64,000 bases of DNA. It comes from Alphaproteobacteria bacterium. Its GTDB lineage: Bacteria > Pseudomonadota > Alphaproteobacteria > Sphingomonadales > JAKSBY01. The DNA is taken from contig JAJFIV010000005.1 of the NCBI GenBank assembly GCA_021774625.1, positions 1 to 64,000 on the forward strand. Direction: 5' to 3'. Under the pieces are notes generated by a model. The model was not told the origin of the DNA, searched no databases, and was given only the letters and a program-made list of their open reading frames with translations. Position numbers and translations under genes: made by a program. Shown here in pieces: positions 42,023 through 49,601 of the stretch; position 1 is the first letter of the stretch, and the number at the start of each line of letters is the position of its first letter.

Positions 42023-42099
42023 GGCGGAGTAGCTCAGCCGGTTAGAGCAGCGGAATCATAATCCGCGTGTCGGGGGTTCGAGTCCCTCCTCCGCTACCA
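42023..42099 (+). tRNA. tRNA-Met (CAT), elongator
   Basis: A 77-base cloverleaf with encoded CCA. D arm AGCTCAGCCGGTTAGAGC, anticodon stem GCGGA/TCCGC around ATCATAA (anticodon CAT), T arm GGGGGTTCGAGTCCCTC, acceptor GGCGGAG with CTCCGCT (first pair G-T wobble). The anticodon stem lacks the three G-C pairs of initiator tRNA, so this is the elongator Met species; a tRNA-Ile with modified CAT is a less likely reading. Confidence 0.95.
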
Positions 42100-42399
42100 T
42101 TAAATCAATGACTTAGGGTCAGGACCTACCGCTTCGTCTCGAAATAGAAGATAGACAACTGCACCATCCTTACTTGTTGTATAGGAACGTCAAATCTTAT
42201 AATTATCTTGGGGATGGAGTTAGGTTTCAAAGTCGCTCCGCTTGCATCGCCGCGTGGCATACTCATTATCTCCAGCACAGGACTTCGTGAAGATGGTACA
42301 TATCCGTCAGATGTTGCTAGTATTCAGTATTGCAACAATTTTGGGTGGACTAGCGGACGTCACGGACTTTTTTTAAACGCACAAAATGGAGGCGGGATC
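42100..42399. other. Region between tRNA-Met and norB
   Basis: It holds TTAGGGTCAGGACC (42113-42126, a dispersed repeat word) and a good promoter match TTGTTG-N18-TATAAT (42174-42203). It also holds a 27-codon frame (42293-42376) encoding a hydrophobic peptide beginning MVHIRQMLLVFSIATILGG. The frame of norB stays open back to 42208, but that stretch has no recognisable protein similarity and the strong ribosome site lies at 42400. No clear NnrR, NsrR or NorR site was found. Confidence 0.5.
42174..42203 (+). promoter_or_regulatory. norB: Possible sigma70-type promoter upstream of norB
   Basis: TTGTTG (42174-42179) and a perfect TATAAT (42198-42203) are spaced 18 bases apart. This implies a leader of about 190 bases before norB. 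Confidence 0.45.
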
Positions 42400-44685
42400 A
42401 TGGAAACCTATAAACAGACGTTCAGCATCAAGCGGCTATGGATCATCCTGACCGTCGGAATGGTTTTTATGTTCGGCATTTTGTTGTTCCTCGGCGCGGA
42501 AATTTACCAGAAGGCACCGCCCATACCAGAGGCCGTCAAATCGGCGTCCGGCGACGTGCTGTTCACCCGCGGTGACATCGAAACCGGACAAAATGTCTGG
42601 CAATCCATTGGCGGCATGGAGCAAGGTTCAATCTGGGGGCATGGCAGCTATCTCGCGCCCGACTGGAGCGCGGACTGGCTCCACCGGGAAGCTGAAGCGC
42701 TGCTTGCACTTCGATTGCAAACACCCATCGCGGGCCTTTCCCAAGCGCAGGATATGGCCTTGCAAAAAGCGGCGTTGCAGGACGAGATGCGCACCAACAG
42801 CTATGATCCGGCCACCGGCACGATCACGGTTAGTGATTTGCGCGCCCAAGCCATCAACCAGGTCCAGACACATTATGTCAGGCTGTATGAAGGCGGCGAC
42901 GCCGAGTCACTGGCACTGCGCCGTGATTATGCTTTCCCTGTTCATGGTCTCCTGAACACCGAAGAAGCGGAGCAACTCACAGCCTTTTATTTCTGGACGG
43001 CCTGGGGCGCGACCACCAATCGTCCGGGCCTGGAGATCACCTACACCAGCAACTGGCCGCATGAACCGCTGGTGGGCAATAAACCAACGACCGAAGTTTT
43101 GATGTGGAGCATTGCGTCCGTTATCCTGCTGCTTGCCGCAGCCGGTGCTCTCATCGCCTATTACGCCAAACAGTTTGATGTCTGGCGGAAAGAAATAGCG
43201 CCCGAAGACGGCATAGCCAAAGCCGACATATTGGACAGCGCGGTTATCACCCCGTCGATGCGGGCAACGGCAAAATATTTCTGGATCGTCTGCGCAATGT
43301 TTGGCGGCCAGGTCTTGCTCGGCATAGTAACCGCGCATTATGCTGTCGAAGGACAAGGGCTCTATGGTCTGCCATTTGCAGAGTATCTGCCTTATTCGGT
43401 GACGCGGACATGGCACACGCAACTTGCGGTGCTTTGGATTGCAACCGCTTGGCTTGCAGCAGGTCTTTATGTCGCTCCAATGCTTGGTGGAAGAGATCCC
43501 AAGTTTCAGCGGTTTGGCGTAAACTTCCTCTTTTTCAGCCTGCTGATCATTGTCGTGGGTTCGTTTGCGGGCCAATGGGCGGCGGTGCACCGCCTCATTA
43601 GTGACCTGACGATGAACTTCTGGTTTGGGCATCAGGGTTATGAATATGTTGATCTTGGCCGGTTCTGGCAGATTTACCTGACCATCGGACTATTTCTATG
43701 GGTTGGACTGGTGGTCCGGGGATTGTGGCCGGTCTTGCTGCAAAAGGGCGGAAAGTCGCTGATATATCTCGTGCTCGTCTCGGCGATAGCAATTGGTCTC
43801 CTTTATGCCGCCGGCCTGATGTGGGGGCAGCATACCCATATTTCGATCATGGAATATTGGCGCTGGTGGGTCGTTCACCTCTGGGTCGAAGGCATTTTTG
43901 AGGTTTTCGCCACCGCGATCATTTCTCTTTTGTTCGTCCGCATGGGCATATTGCGCACCTCAACCGCGACGGTGATGGTGCTGTTTGCAACAATCATCTT
44001 CCTGTTCGGCGGTGTGCTGGGTACTTTCCATCATCTCTATTTCAGCGGGACGCCAACCTCGGTTATTGCTGTTGGTGCGATGATATCGGCGCTTGAGGTG
44101 GTTCCGTTACTGGTTGTCGGCTTTGAGGCCTATACCAGACACAAGCTCGAACATGAGGTGGAATGGGAGCGTAACTACCACTGGCCGTTCATGTTTTTTG
44201 CGGCGGTATTATTCTGGAATCTGATAGGCGCCGGGTTGTTCGGCTTTATGATCAATCCACCGATTGCTCTTTACTACATGCAGGGCCTGAACACGACTGC
44301 CAATCATGGTCACGCTGCGTTATTTGGTGTCTATGGAATGCTTGGATTGGGTCTGACGCTATACTGTATGCGCGGCCTTACCAAGACAGCCCTGTGGAAT
44401 GAAAAACTACTCAAAATTTCATTCTGGTCGCTCAACATCGGCCTTGCCATGATGACATTTTTGTCGTTGTTACCGCAAGGTGTGTTCCAGACCTATATCA
44501 GCATCGAACATGGCTATTCCTTCGCCCGCTCGGCTGAACTTATGCAAGGTCCGATCATGCAGGCTTTGGTATGGGCACGGGTGCCGGGTGATATCGTGTT
44601 CAGTATCGGTGTCTTTGCGTTTGTTTGGTTCGTTTTCCGAGCGTTCGTGCCGAGAAGAAAATATCAGGAATTCGCTATATCTTGA
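42400..44685 (+). CDS. norB: Quinol-dependent nitric oxide reductase (qNOR)
   Basis: 761 residues from ATG at 42400, directly after GGAGGCGGGATC. It reduces two NO to N2O using quinol at the cytoplasmic membrane. The N-terminal helix (about 12-35) is followed by the qNOR-specific hydrophilic domain (GGMEQGSIWGHGSYLAPDWS). A 12-13 helix haem-copper-oxidase-like core then carries the His ligands, for example in TRTWHTQLAVLW and HHLYFSGTPT. The fused N-terminal domain separates it from cytochrome-c-dependent NorBC. It is alone between a tRNA gene and a transposase remnant, suggesting acquisition for NO detoxification. Confidence 0.94.
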   Translation: METYKQTFSIKRLWIILTVGMVFMFGILLFLGAEIYQKAPPIPEAVKSASGDVLFTRGDIETGQNVWQSIGGMEQGSIWGHGSYLAPDWSADWLHREAEALLALRLQTPIAGLSQAQDMALQKAALQDEMRTNSYDPATGTITVSDLRAQAINQVQTHYVRLYEGGDAESLALRRDYAFPVHGLLNTEEAEQLTAFYFWTAWGATTNRPGLEITYTSNWPHEPLVGNKPTTEVLMWSIASVILLLAAAGALIAYYAKQFDVWRKEIAPEDGIAKADILDSAVITPSMRATAKYFWIVCAMFGGQVLLGIVTAHYAVEGQGLYGLPFAEYLPYSVTRTWHTQLAVLWIATAWLAAGLYVAPMLGGRDPKFQRFGVNFLFFSLLIIVVGSFAGQWAAVHRLISDLTMNFWFGHQGYEYVDLGRFWQIYLTIGLFLWVGLVVRGLWPVLLQKGGKSLIYLVLVSAIAIGLLYAAGLMWGQHTHISIMEYWRWWVVHLWVEGIFEVFATAIISLLFVRMGILRTSTATVMVLFATIIFLFGGVLGTFHHLYFSGTPTSVIAVGAMISALEVVPLLVVGFEAYTRHKLEHEVEWERNYHWPFMFFAAVLFWNLIGAGLFGFMINPPIALYYMQGLNTTANHGHAALFGVYGMLGLGLTLYCMRGLTKTALWNEKLLKISFWSLNIGLAMMTFLSLLPQGVFQTYISIEHGYSFARSAELMQGPIMQALVWARVPGDIVFSIGVFAFVWFVFRAFVPRRKYQEFAIS

Positions 44686-44839: not shown

Positions 44840-45090
44840 TCAAGCGTCGCGTGCAAGGTAGAGATTGGCCAGGGCCATGAGGCTGAACACCTGCGCCCAC
44901 ATGCGCCTTCATACCAAAATACCGCTGATTCCCCTTTTTCGGCTGGCTCATCTCGGGGTCGTGCTGGCGCTTCCTGTTTTTGGTCGAGGGCGGGACGGCA
45001 ATCAAAGTCGCCTCCAAGGCACAACCGCATCCATCTCGCCCGGAAAATCTCCCGCTTCGTCCGCTTCAGTGGATTACCGCGGCTCCGGCA
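44840..45090 (-). pseudogene. Decayed IS5-family transposase
   Basis: Pieces of one transposase appear in order on the minus strand in different frames: RTKREIFRA, then GEMDAVVPW, then [20 protein letters not shown] leading to [14 protein letters not shown], then [15 protein letters not shown] and a stop. These correspond to N-terminal, DDE-domain and C-terminal segments of IS5-type transposases, with frameshifts and an internal deletion. No intact open frame or terminal repeats remain. Its 5' end overlaps the end of the neighbouring Cys-rich protein gene. Confidence 0.75.
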
Positions 45091-45460
45091 GTTCCCCATT
45101 CTCAGGCGGCAAAATTGCGTCCAGCTTTGCCGTGCAGATTTTGGCGGTATCCGTGAGAAAATCGCGGTCTTCGGGGAGGATTTTGCCGGTTTCCATGGCC
45201 TCGGTCACCCGCAGATAGCGGTCGAGGGAGAGATTCTGGTCGAACTGGCGGACGGTGCAGTCGCAGAGGATTTCACAGATCAGTTCCGAATTATTCTGGC
45301 CGCAGCCGGCCTTGCAGAAATTGAGATTTTCGCGCAGCAGTTCACGGGGGATTTCCTGGGCGGCCACGGCCCAGGGGGCGAAACAGACAAGCACCGTCAG
45401 GAAAGCCCGGGCCAGTTTCCCTGTTTTTACCCGGAAGGCTGCTCTGCCTGCATTTTGCAT
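45074..45460 (-). CDS. Exported cysteine-rich protein of the zinc operon
   Basis: 128 residues with an N-terminal signal peptide ending PWAVAAQE (about 34). The mature part has a cysteine cluster, CKAGCGQNNSELICEILCDC, followed by a helix and a further Cys near 108. No family is recognised. Its ATG shares a base with the stop of zur (TAATG), so translation is coupled and a zinc- or thiol-related periplasmic role is plausible by context only. Its 3' end runs into the transposase remnant, so the C-terminus may not be original. Confidence 0.7.
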   Translation of the reverse strand: MQNAGRAAFRVKTGKLARAFLTVLVCFAPWAVAAQEIPRELLRENLNFCKAGCGQNNSELICEILCDCTVRQFDQNLSLDRYLRVTEAMETGKILPEDRDFLTDTAKICTAKLDAILPPENGELPEPR

Positions 45461-45948
45461 TAATTACCCCCGGAACAATTTCCGCACAACCCATGCACTT
45501 CAATCGTCTGGCGGCCGATGTGGAAACCGGCTTTATCGGCCTGATCGCGGATCGACAGGCGCACGCCCTGAGCGTTGATTTCCGCCACATTGTCACAGTT
45601 ATTGCAGATCAGAAACTGGCTTTCATGGCCATCATCGGGATGGGCGCAGCCGACGAAAGCATTCAGCGATTCGATGCGGTGAATGAAGCCATGTTCGATC
45701 AGAAAGTCCAGCGCCCGGTAGACCGTCGGCGGCTTGGTCGCCTGACCGTCGGTCGAAAACCGTTCGATGATGTCATAGGCCTTGACCGCCGTGTGGCTCT
45801 GCCAGACCAGTTCCAGCACCCGGCGGCGGGTTTCGGTAAAGCGCAGCCCGCGCTCGGCGCTCAATTCCTCCGCCCGCGCCAGCGCATCTTCGATACAATG
45901 ATTGTGATCATGGCTCGGCGAAACTCCGGAGGGAATCATGCTTTTCAT
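45460..45948 (-). CDS. zur: Zinc uptake regulator of the Fur family
   Basis: 162 residues. Winged-helix DNA-binding region (ERGLRFTETRRRVLELVWQS, PTVYRALDFLIEHGF) and C-terminal dimerisation domain with FLICNNCDNVAEI and a final LCGNC. These provide the two CxxC pairs that hold structural zinc in Zur proteins. The His-rich start (SHDHNHC) fits a zinc sensor. With zinc bound it represses zinc import genes, here its own operon, through the palindrome at 49532-49550. It follows znuB by 42 bases. Confidence 0.92.
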   Translation of the reverse strand: MKSMIPSGVSPSHDHNHCIEDALARAEELSAERGLRFTETRRRVLELVWQSHTAVKAYDIIERFSTDGQATKPPTVYRALDFLIEHGFIHRIESLNAFVGCAHPDDGHESQFLICNNCDNVAEINAQGVRLSIRDQADKAGFHIGRQTIEVHGLCGNCSGGN

Positions 45949-45990
45949 ACTCCATCTCTATACGATACTATGTCCGGCGTCAAAATACCG

Positions 45991-46767
45991 TTAGCGGTTT
46001 TCCGGTCTGAATCTGCTGAAAATGATGGCGGCCAGTAACGCTGCAAAGGCCAGCGACCAAACGAGGGTCGGCCCCGTGGGGGCATCGGTCAAAACTGAAA
46101 ATACTAAACCCAGGATAATTCCGACAACCGAAATGACGTAACCGGCGATAATGCGGTGCCGGCTCACCAGGACCCGTGCCGCCAGCGCGGGGAAAATCAG
46201 TGAGGCAAACACCAGATAGACTCCGACTATCTGAACGGACGCGGTCACCGCCACAGTAAAAATCCCGTAGAAACCAAGCCGTCCGAGGCGTTCCCTGAAA
46301 AAGAACCAGACAACCAGAATGGCGATATAGACCGGCAGAATTGTAGCGATTTCACGCCAGGAAACCCACAAAATCTGGCCCGCCAGCAGATCCCTGATCT
46401 CATCCCCCCCGGCCGGCTGATTGGCCAGCAGAAGCAGCGCCATGGAGGCGGCAAGAACGAAGGTGCAGCCGATCAGCGCCTCCTGATACTGATGCAGTTT
46501 TTTGTCGGTCCAGGAAAAAATGGCCCCCCCCGCAAGGGCGGCGGCAAGGGCGGATGCCTGAACGGCAACAGCCGAGCCGCCCTCATGTTCAGGGCCAAAA
46601 TAAAGCGTTCCGGCAACCGCGCCGAGCCCCGCGAGCTGGGCGGTGGCGAGATCAATGAAAATGATGCCCCTGTTCAATACTTCGGTGCCAAGCGGAACAT
46701 GGGTCGCCATGACCAGCAGGCTGGCGACAAATGCAGGAGCGATGATTGATAATAAGGTGAGATCCAT
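45991..46767 (-). CDS. znuB: Zinc/metal ABC transporter permease (ZnuB-like)
   Basis: 258 residues with about eight membrane helices of the ABC-3 family. The start MDLTLLSIIAPAFVASLLVM, RGIIFIDLATAQLAGLGAVA and the ATPase-contact region LVFASLIFPALAARVLVSRH are typical. It forms the membrane channel for Zn(II) (or Mn) import. Its start is 2 bases after the znuA stop. No ATPase (znuC) is encoded in the operon, so the ATPase must come from elsewhere. Confidence 0.9.
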   Translation of the reverse strand: MDLTLLSIIAPAFVASLLVMATHVPLGTEVLNRGIIFIDLATAQLAGLGAVAGTLYFGPEHEGGSAVAVQASALAAALAGGAIFSWTDKKLHQYQEALIGCTFVLAASMALLLLANQPAGGDEIRDLLAGQILWVSWREIATILPVYIAILVVWFFFRERLGRLGFYGIFTVAVTASVQIVGVYLVFASLIFPALAARVLVSRHRIIAGYVISVVGIILGLVFSVLTDAPTGPTLVWSLAFAALLAAIIFSRFRPENR

Positions 46768-46769
46768 CG

Positions 46770-47675
46770 CTATTCTCCATTTTCCACCAACAGGCCAACC
46801 GTCACATCGAACAGCCTGAAAAGGTCATCCGCCTCCTTGCTGCCGCCAACGGTAAAGGGCAATGATACTTCCGGCAGGCCGCTGCGCTCGGCCAGCCAGC
46901 GCGACGGCTTGTCATTTTCATAGGCCGCGTTGATGATCATTTTCGCCGGACTTGAACGCAAAGTCTCAAGAACCGTTTCCAGGTGTGATGTCGAGGGCGG
47001 GATGCCCGGCTTCGGCTCCAGGGTGACGACAACATTCAGCCCGAGCCACTGGACCAGATAGACCCAGGTCGAATGCTGCACAACAACAGGCACCCCCCGC
47101 AATCCCTCCGCCTGCCGTTCCCAGCGCGTCATTGCTTCGGTCCAGCGGTGGTTAAAACTTGCCAGCCGGTCCACAAAATAGGCCCTGTCGCCGGGCGCTA
47201 TGGCGGAAAGCCGCTCCGCCAGTATTTGCGCGACCGAGAAAATATTGTGCGGATTGGTCGCAATATGCGGATTTCCCTGGGGATGGATATCGCCAAGCGA
47301 ACGGTCAAGGCTGGTTGGCACTTCAAGCTTTTTGACAAAACTGGCGGCCTCAAGATAACCCGGTGTGCCCGGCTGCACCCCTGCATTGCCGGCCTGGCGC
47401 AACAGCAGCGGCAGCCAGCCGATTTCCAGGTCGGCGCCGTTGCAAAAAACCAGATCGGCCCTTCTGACCTGCGCGATCAGGCTCGGCCGGGCGCTGATAA
47501 AGTGCGGGTCCTGTTTTGCGCTGGTGGCGACAATGACATTGGCCTTATCGCCGCCGATTTCCATGGCCAGCGCGCCCCATTCCGGCTCGCAGGCGAAGAC
47601 GCGGACATTGGCCGAGGCCGGGCCCGGCGTCAGCATGCCCAAGGTAAAAAGAAGAATAATGAGATATTTCGGCAT
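46770..47675 (-). CDS. znuA: Periplasmic zinc-binding protein (ZnuA-like)
   Basis: 301 residues from ATG at 47675, after AGGAGTTGAT; a longer frame to 47720 is not supported. The signal peptide ends GPASANV (about 22-24). Likely metal ligands are His in KQDPHFISARPS, His in the PQGNPHIATNPHN region and His in VVVQHSTWVY. There is no His-rich loop between them, as seen in some high-affinity zinc proteins. It delivers zinc to ZnuB. Confidence 0.9.
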   Translation of the reverse strand: MPKYLIILLFTLGMLTPGPASANVRVFACEPEWGALAMEIGGDKANVIVATSAKQDPHFISARPSLIAQVRRADLVFCNGADLEIGWLPLLLRQAGNAGVQPGTPGYLEAASFVKKLEVPTSLDRSLGDIHPQGNPHIATNPHNIFSVAQILAERLSAIAPGDRAYFVDRLASFNHRWTEAMTRWERQAEGLRGVPVVVQHSTWVYLVQWLGLNVVVTLEPKPGIPPSTSHLETVLETLRSSPAKMIINAAYENDKPSRWLAERSGLPEVSLPFTVGGSKEADDLFRLFDVTVGLLVENGE

Positions 47676-47700
47676 ATCAACTCCTGTCCGGATTCCCGGA

Positions 47701-49092
47701 TTAAAAATTATGCGCGCCATGGGCGCCGATGCTTAAAATATATTGAATATAAAACCGGTTATCGGTCAGCAGCCCCCTTTTCTCATGGGTGAACTGCGTC
47801 CTGAGCGCGCTGTATTCGCTGTTGCTCCAGTCGAACATCACGCTATGGGACCGTGTCTTCCTGCCCATGGCATCAAGCGCTGTCCCCGCCAGTGCTGCGG
47901 GCAGACCGCCATCCGGATCAAGAAGAGCAAAACGGTAACCGGTCCGGTATTTGGGCGCGAATTTATAGACACCCTGGAGATAAAACCCGTCGTCTACCGC
48001 CGAGACCGGAATGTCGTTAAAAAGGCCATCATCGTAGCGGCGGAAATATTCCCCCTGCAATGTGACATAGCGTTGCCGGACATTGCCCTCGGGCGACCAC
48101 TGGTATTTGAAGTCGGCAATCAACAGATCGGAATTACCGTCAAATGACAGCAATTCTTCGATTGGCGCGCCTTCCTCGCCCGATACCCGGCCTTCGGCAT
48201 CGGAATGCAGATAGGAAACCCCGGCCCGCCAGTTGTTTGAAAATCCGATATCGCCGCCGAGACGCAAAAAAGCCGAATAAGCGCCGACACCGCCGTTGGG
48301 TGAACCGCCGGCCGGAAAATCCGCGCCGCGGAATACGCCGCCGCCCGTCTGAATATAAAGCTCTGTCGGCAGGATCACCGACAACTGCACGCCTTCGTCA
48401 TTATACTGATCGGCAAGAAAAGCCTGATAGGGCAGGGGCCGGTCGACGAAATCATCCGTATGGTCGTGATTCTCATTCAGATAACCGAGCGCGGGAAAAA
48501 ACCGTCCGGCTTTCAGTGTCGCACCGTAAGGAAGGGACAGGGTCTGGATATACGCTTCCTCCAGATCGACCTCTACACCTTGCTCGCCGGCATCAAGCGC
48601 AGCGGTGACACTGGCGAAAAACAGATCGTCCGCGTTAGCCGAAAAACCGAATTCCGTCTCGTCAAGGGCAAGGCCTTCCGCGCCCGGGCCGGTTTCACCG
48701 CCCAATGGAAAACCCGGCAAAGAGAAACTTTCCGGATCCTGCTTAAAGGCGGAAAAGCGTCCGTTAAACACAACGCCGATCGACGGGTTGAAAGCGTTTC
48801 CACGGGTTGGACGCCCGCCCAATATCTCGGCTGGCGCGGTGGATTGTGCGGCGGAAACGGTGGAAGGCCCTAAGGATGCCGTGTCCTGCGGGGCTACAGT
48901 CTGCCGGGCTTCCAGCGAATTGATACGCTCCTCCAGCCGGGCAATTTCCCCTTCATATTGGGCCCTCATTTTTGCGAGGGCGTCGCGCAGAATACTGATC
49001 TCGCTGCTTTCCTGCGCGCTTGCCGCGTCAAATATACCTGTTAAAGCCATGGCGAACGCCAGACCAAAAACGGTCCTGTTCCTGTAGCGCAT
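47701..49092 (-). CDS. Zinc-operon outer-membrane beta-barrel protein
   Basis: 463 residues from ATG at 49092, after GGAGATTTTC. The signal peptide ends FDAASAQ (about 27). A short coiled coil (LRDALAKMRAQYEGEIARLE, then ERINSLEAR) is followed by a P/T/A-rich linker and a barrel of alternating aromatic strands, ending with an outer-membrane-type C-terminus (GAHNF, Phe last). The N-terminal coiled coil plus barrel resembles trimeric porins. Position between a CxxC protein and znuA under a Zur-like site suggests passage of zinc or zinc complexes across the outer membrane. There is no TonB plug domain. Confidence 0.8.
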   Translation of the reverse strand: MRYRNRTVFGLAFAMALTGIFDAASAQESSEISILRDALAKMRAQYEGEIARLEERINSLEARQTVAPQDTASLGPSTVSAAQSTAPAEILGGRPTRGNAFNPSIGVVFNGRFSAFKQDPESFSLPGFPLGGETGPGAEGLALDETEFGFSANADDLFFASVTAALDAGEQGVEVDLEEAYIQTLSLPYGATLKAGRFFPALGYLNENHDHTDDFVDRPLPYQAFLADQYNDEGVQLSVILPTELYIQTGGGVFRGADFPAGGSPNGGVGAYSAFLRLGGDIGFSNNWRAGVSYLHSDAEGRVSGEEGAPIEELLSFDGNSDLLIADFKYQWSPEGNVRQRYVTLQGEYFRRYDDGLFNDIPVSAVDDGFYLQGVYKFAPKYRTGYRFALLDPDGGLPAALAGTALDAMGRKTRSHSVMFDWSNSEYSALRTQFTHEKRGLLTDNRFYIQYILSIGAHGAHNF

Positions 49093-49196
49093 GAAAATCT
49101 CCATCGTGATTTTGCTGTTCATCCGGGCTTGTTATGATTGCCCGGTCTTTGGCTGCGGTCTGCCAAAACCGGAAGACCCGGGACTAATCCCTTTGA

Positions 49197-49487
49197 TCAG
49201 GCAAAATGAACCGGTGGAGCACGGCTCGGCGGAAGAAAAACGAGAATGCCGCTCATCTCGCGTTCGGCCATGGCCTGGACGGTAATTGAATCGAAAAAAA
49301 GTTCGTCCGGTATCGCGGTCACACTGTCTGGCAGGGACCAGCCATTGCCGTCTATTTTACAGACCAGACATTTACCGGCTACGGAATGATTGTTTGCGCC
49401 ATGGGCCAGAAAACCAAGCTGAAGGACCGCAATCGCCAAAAATGCGGCGGCGGCAAACAGTTTGATATAGAGCCGTATAGTGGTCAT
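49197..49487 (-). CDS. Small exported CxxC protein, first gene of the zinc operon (DUF2946-like)
   Basis: 96 residues from ATG at 49487, after AGGACTTTTCCAG. The N-terminal hydrophobic segment (about 8-27) is a signal peptide or anchor. It is followed by HGANNHSVAGKCLVCKIDGN with one CxxC and two His, then a Ser/Pro-rich tail. Size and the Cys pair recall DUF2946 proteins, which often accompany metal transport genes. Its role is unknown. It lies immediately downstream of the Zur-box-like palindrome. Confidence 0.7.
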   Translation of the reverse strand: MTTIRLYIKLFAAAAFLAIAVLQLGFLAHGANNHSVAGKCLVCKIDGNGWSLPDSVTAIPDELFFDSITVQAMAEREMSGILVFLPPSRAPPVHFA

Positions 49488-49531
49488 CTGGAAAAGTCCT
49501 GACAATAGCGGCTGACCTTCAGAATGGAGAA

Positions 49532-49550
49532 AATGTTATACTATAGCTTT
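49532..49550. promoter_or_regulatory. Zur-box-like operator
   Basis: AATGTTATACTATAGCTTT is a 19-bp near-palindrome around C49541. It resembles the alphaproteobacterial Zur consensus AATGTTATAnTATAACATT. It stands about 45 bases upstream of the first gene of the minus-strand operon that includes zur itself, fitting zinc-dependent autoregulation. Confidence 0.72.
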
Positions 49551-49601
49551 TTTGTCAAGCTGCATGTGGGGACACCCACCGGCCCGGGCTTCCTGACGGG
49601 C

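Follow-up and report, generated by a model that had tools for sequence, protein, structure and literature searches.

A putative Zur-controlled zinc operon joins an outer-membrane porin to a ZnuA-ZnuB pair lacking both the ATPase gene and the coupling helix

The ATPase is the defining part of an ABC importer. A set of six genes in the 64,000-nucleotide stretch of alphaproteobacterial DNA analysed here (the window) raises the question of how an operon encoding ZnuA, a ZnuB-like permease and no ZnuC would bring zinc into the cell. The first-pass annotation had described six tightly spaced minus-strand genes as a zinc operon with its own operator, an outer-membrane barrel and no ATPase, and all of this was upheld. 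Starting from the head of the operon, the minus strand encodes a small exported or anchored protein of 96 aa (49197-49487, likely start 49487), a porin made of a coiled coil and a barrel (47701-49092, likely start 49092, with the ORF open to 49122), ZnuA (46770-47675, likely start 47675, with the ORF open to 47720), the ZnuB-like ABC-3 permease (45991-46767, likely start 46767), the Fur-family zinc repressor Zur (45460-45948) and a Cys-rich exported protein (45074-45460). The TAATG overlap noticed earlier is real; it joins zur to the Cys-rich gene, with one base (45460) common to both. ZnuA matched PF01297 in Pfam (3.9e-36), and alignments showed that its His ligands are kept in DPH73, GNPH152 and H216 (numbering from 47720). 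The permease matched PF00950 (ABC-3) above the Pfam cut-off (3.1e-17). Zur matched PF01475 (2.8e-13), and its best NCBIfam match was PRK11639 Zur (6.3e-40) at 137 bits, below the equivalog cut-off of 167. Neither the small protein nor the barrel nor the Cys-rich protein matched any Pfam or NCBIfam family above cut-off. Directly downstream of the operon and convergent with it, we noticed by eye a putative NorB-like ORF (quinol-type nitric oxide reductase) at 42208-44685 on the plus strand, and a tRNA-Met (cat) gene lies at 42023-42099 on the same strand.

We then asked whether the missing ATPase is encoded elsewhere in the genome. Genome-wide searches found a single ZnuA and, leaving aside a FecCD relative on contig 11 that has an ATPase of its own, a single ABC-3 permease; no ZIP transporter was found. 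The genome encodes about 40 ABC-ATPase domains, and the ZnuC model scored at best 91 bits against them, the cut-off being 306. Using an HMM built from canonical ZnuCs, held-out canonical ZnuCs scored 169-442 bits, and the best single-domain protein of the genome, LptB, reached 163; two-domain ABC-F-type proteins exceeded this value only through the summing of both domains. Judged by gene context and sequence, the ATPase neighbourhoods belong to LptB, Mla, Lol, MacB, PstB, SufC, CcmA, ModC-, FbpC-, BtuD/FecE- and ABC-2-type sets. These scores and neighbourhoods rule out a hidden znuC, and the earlier remark that ZnuC is missing holds for the whole genome as well as for the operon. An assembly gap is also unlikely: the completeness rating of the genome is 100%, and the same situation recurs in G393, G253 and G250, three complete genomes of one contig each.

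The permease itself proved unusual, a point that the first-pass annotation had missed. The two stretches matched by PF00950 (profile positions 4-148 and 171-256) lie end to end in the protein, and the 22 profile positions absent between them correspond to a cytoplasmic loop. In alignments, this loop of 15-19 residues is present in 26 of 26 canonical permeases and in 0 of 43 permeases of the family described below. The canonical loop carries an AxxxG motif (A conserved at 92%, G at 96%), and previous work assigns the coupling helix of PF00950/type II permeases to this stretch between two helices (PMC3688454). In IsdF, A213 and G217 of the coupling helix are jointly required for binding of the FhuC ATPase (PMC10147376). 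From the alignment and this literature, the missing loop would be the ATPase-coupling helix. In its place, the alignment and the AlphaFold model (pLDDT 93.8) put a four-residue turn (residues 158-161; 46285-46296, minus strand), which joins helices 137-157 and 162-181 within an arginine-rich stretch. No solved structure was found for the permease by sequence; by Foldseek, the model best matched PsaC of a manganese importer (TM 0.76, 3.3e-7). Canonical permeases also have a transmembrane D/H pair (D 92%, H 100%); the family permeases have L40 and Q44 at these positions, with D39 and E96 conserved at 98%. The dN/dS values of 0.04-0.20 in nine pairs indicate strong purifying selection along the whole length of the protein and, with more than 40 intact homologues, rule out a pseudogene. 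Since a whole family of permeases lacks the coupling helix, the missing ATPase is neither an annotation gap nor a displaced znuC.

This family spans two phyla. The four-gene cassette of small protein, porin, ZnuA and ZnuB without an ATPase is conserved in Alpha- and Gammaproteobacteria, Vibrio and Sulfurovum, the close relatives being an Emcibacter MAG, gammaproteobacterial MAGs, genomes of the same order, Vibrio campbellii and Sulfurovum mangrovi. When 398 Pseudomonadota genomes, among which one family (f43) was heavily sampled, were searched with a profile, 44 genomes scored 114 bits or more and the rest 70 bits or less, with a clean gap between. Comparing 40 family loci with 20 canonical ones, we find no adjacent ATPase gene in the former (0/40) against 19/20 in the latter. 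The binding protein (SBP) gene adjoins the permease in 39 of the 40 family loci, the remaining locus being cut by a contig end, and about 32 also have the barrel. The ATPase genes that do fall within the 40 family regions are a canonical znuC from the divergent operon next to the L090 cassette, a SufC (L109) and, in L112, a tandem pair 2.3 kb beyond the barrel. In a quick tree built with the loop columns removed, one branch splits loop from no-loop permeases (SH-aLRT 98); with long branches present, the tree favours a single origin without proving it. A PF00950 survey of 25 genomes found no canonical ABC-3 permease in G393, G253, G250, G361, G395, G323 and the genome of the window, while Vibrio-like and f43 genomes hold both canonical and loop-free permeases. 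No ZIP match was found in G393, as in our genome; ZIP proteins occur in G253 and G395, and G250, G361 and G323 gave sub-threshold ZIP hits only.

Some loci depart from the common pattern. A barrel-less subgroup of coupling-loop-free permeases (L118, L119, L120, L122, L108 and L110) always consists of SBP and permease, with no evident zinc context; two of these permeases (L118 and L120) carry an acidic tail at the C-terminus and are followed by an exported protein, with a MoxR/CbbQ-like AAA+ gene adjoining. The cassette of L028 (genome G015) is diverged; it has barrel, SBP and permease, after which the contig ends. Its permease gives an unbroken PF00950 match of 95 bits with a loop unlike the canonical AxxxG loop, and is possibly an intermediate. 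At L126, RnhB-like and RsgA-like genes precede a pair of canonical ABC-3 permeases.

Could the permease nevertheless be powered by an ABC ATPase encoded elsewhere, such as the FecE/BtuD-like one on contig 11, in the way that FhuC serves several iron permeases of Staphylococcus aureus? Such sharing is documented (PMC10147376), the genome does hold a FecCD permease with its own ATPase, and the permease fold is still that of a type II importer. However, permeases that share an ATPase keep the coupling helix, and the whole cassette family is without it; the canonical L126 pair, which has no adjacent SBP or ATPase, retains its loop intact. Moreover, no ATPase of the genome is ZnuC-like above the background set by LptB. 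We thus consider ATPase sharing unlikely, though it is the strongest of the alternatives that we scored. A further rival would be that an ATPase is recruited by a different surface of the permease. With neither docking helix nor ATPase, the simplest reading is that a binding-protein-fed permease runs downhill.

The loss of the transmembrane D/H pair weighs against this reading, as it could mean a changed role of the permease. In that case the ZnuA-ZnuB pair might sense or store periplasmic zinc, or pass it between periplasmic proteins, while zinc enters the cytoplasm by another route. The loss of the coupling helix would fit such a role too. In opposition stand the strong selection over the whole permease, the invariance of D39, Q44 and E96 inside the membrane, and the existence of genomes without any other ABC-3 or ZIP importer; we therefore find a non-import role quite improbable, and the downhill permease remains our preferred reading.

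What ties the cassette to zinc? The Zur-box-like palindrome reported at the head of the operon was confirmed by pattern match at 49531-49551, with no strand assigned. It reads AAATGTTATACTATAGCTTTT on the plus strand and has 2 mismatches to the consensus AAATGTTATANTATAACATTT. The proposed genome-wide check for further Zur boxes returned this site alone at up to 3 mismatches to AAATGTTATANTATAACATTT in the 2.99-Mb genome, and a control pattern gave 0 matches. A sigma-70 scan at the box showed no convincing promoter. Judged from the box and the zur gene, Zur control is the best reading of the window operon. Among the relatives, Zur-like boxes with at most 2 mismatches precede the cassettes of L027, L051 (Vibrio campbellii), L083, L084 and L087. 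In total only about six cassettes have a box at this threshold, and zinc control is therefore unproven in most. When most f43 and f81 loci were searched with the Gammaproteobacterial consensus, L087 alone gave a box at up to 2 mismatches; the operator of the others may differ. A COG0523-like GTPase gene lies near the L099 cassette. The L090 cassette and a complete canonical znuA-znuC-znuB are divergent neighbours on opposite strands (L090:150-5884), so one genome holds both systems. We infer that zinc is the substrate and import the direction. That another divalent metal (Mn, Co, Ni or Fe) is carried and Zur control is incidental seems very improbable: PF01297 includes Mn proteins and most relatives have no detected box, but the operon holds a zur gene and the genome's only Zur box, independent boxes occur in Vibrio and in G021, and the L090 cassette adjoins canonical znuACB.

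The barrel protein was modelled by AlphaFold as 16 strands with an N-terminal coiled coil (pLDDT 81.7). Foldseek placed its fold closest to OmpT, OprP and DcaP-type porins (OprP 2o4v, 2.6e-12; DcaP 6eus, 1.6e-10). The Pfam model Porin_O_P (PF07396) did not match it, and matched 2 of 33 relatives weakly. Across 33 homologues (24-56% identity), E157, E188, H219, H221, D291, E358, R397, H468 and H471 are invariant (numbering from the ATG at 49122). The four His are thus H219 and H221, both in the long stretch that links strands 5 and 6, and the C-terminal H468xxH471xF. By its position, the strand 5-6 segment would be the constriction loop of general porins, which OprP/DcaP-type barrels share.

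The first-pass annotation had counted the small CxxC protein among the parts with no known function. We find that it is a conserved cassette member and distantly DUF2946-like, and in this sense not unique. The family occurs at the same place in at least 29 loci, Sulfurovum included. In 26 homologues at that place, H29, C40, C43, P91 and P92 are invariant, and H33 and R89 are conserved at 90% or more; the motif is HxxxH/HxH...CxxC...RxPP, with HxxxH...CxxC...RAPP as the window version. Weak matches to DUF2946 appeared in 8 of the 26 (E<=0.1, best 5.5e-5), and the window protein scored 17 bits, short of the 23.7-bit cut-off. DUF2946 proteins occur in the Zur-responsive set of Caulobacter, there in an efflux operon (PMC4176598). 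The Cys-rich protein is an accessory: its homologues turned up only next to the cassette in related genomes (L002/L026, 26%; L027, 30%, 1.9e-16), and no meaningful relative of solved structure was found.

Taking these observations together, we think it probable, with clear reservations, that the operon encodes a Zur-repressed zinc path from the outer to the inner membrane in which an SBP-fed permease works without ATP. The OprP/DcaP-type porin, with His in its constriction loop, would pass zinc across the outer membrane. On the periplasmic side, zinc is probably bound or passed on by the small HxxxH/CxxC protein and the Cys-rich protein, and ZnuA would capture it and dock on the ZnuB-like permease. 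This permease, from an ABC-3 branch without coupling helix or ATPase, would then most likely move zinc without ATP hydrolysis. We infer that either the membrane potential or an exchange for protons may drive the flux, together with tight binding and buffering of zinc in the cytoplasm. A full outer-to-inner membrane path had been suggested before, and the idea gains weight because bacteria of two phyla have kept this four-gene cassette.

The closest known system is ZnuABC (ZnuB structure 9oko; the Mn relative PsaBC, 7kyp). The operon shares with it a ZnuA-type SBP, the ABC-3 fold and Zur control. It differs in having no cognate ZnuC, in the deleted AxxxG coupling helix and the replaced D/H pair, and in the porin and small CxxC protein that share an operon with ZnuA-ZnuB. 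AztABC and anchored-repeat ABC systems are ATPase-coupled. Of the named permease models, theirs (AztB NF040871 and TIGR03770) came closest for each of the 34 members tested, and the window permease reached 49.5 and 38.2 bits against cut-offs of 280 and 297. DcaP has an N-terminal coiled coil, and the window porin shares this feature and the 16-strand barrel of OprP and DcaP; unlike them, it has the invariant His/Glu, a link to a zinc operon and no Pfam match. TRAP and TTT transporters perform SBP-dependent, ATP-independent uptake, but with unrelated membrane proteins and for organic acids, not metals. A precedent for uptake by ABC-derived parts without the ATPase is given by solitary ECF S components such as BioY and the cobalt S components (PMC3246461, PMC4820897). 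Those have an unrelated fold and no SBP; in the window permease, the ATPase docking site is lost. In the open-access literature, most subscription journals being outside its coverage, we found no published description of an ATPase-less ZnuAB family.

We give an even chance to the broader proposal that this ABC-3 clade is a new transporter class, a binding-protein-fed, ATP-independent zinc importer that shed its ATPase and docking helix and is paired with a dedicated zinc porin. The annotation 'metal ABC transporter permease', carried by such a protein in the Sulfurovum record, hides the loop-free family. Outer-membrane zinc uptake in Gram-negative bacteria is known mainly for TonB receptors, and the candidate zinc-selective porin addresses this gap. 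The ATPase-free cassette would make ATP-free, binding-protein-dependent metal uptake directly testable. A conserved branch that retains the SBP and permease but has lost the ATPase as well as the coupling helix would illustrate how primary pumps become transporters of another type.
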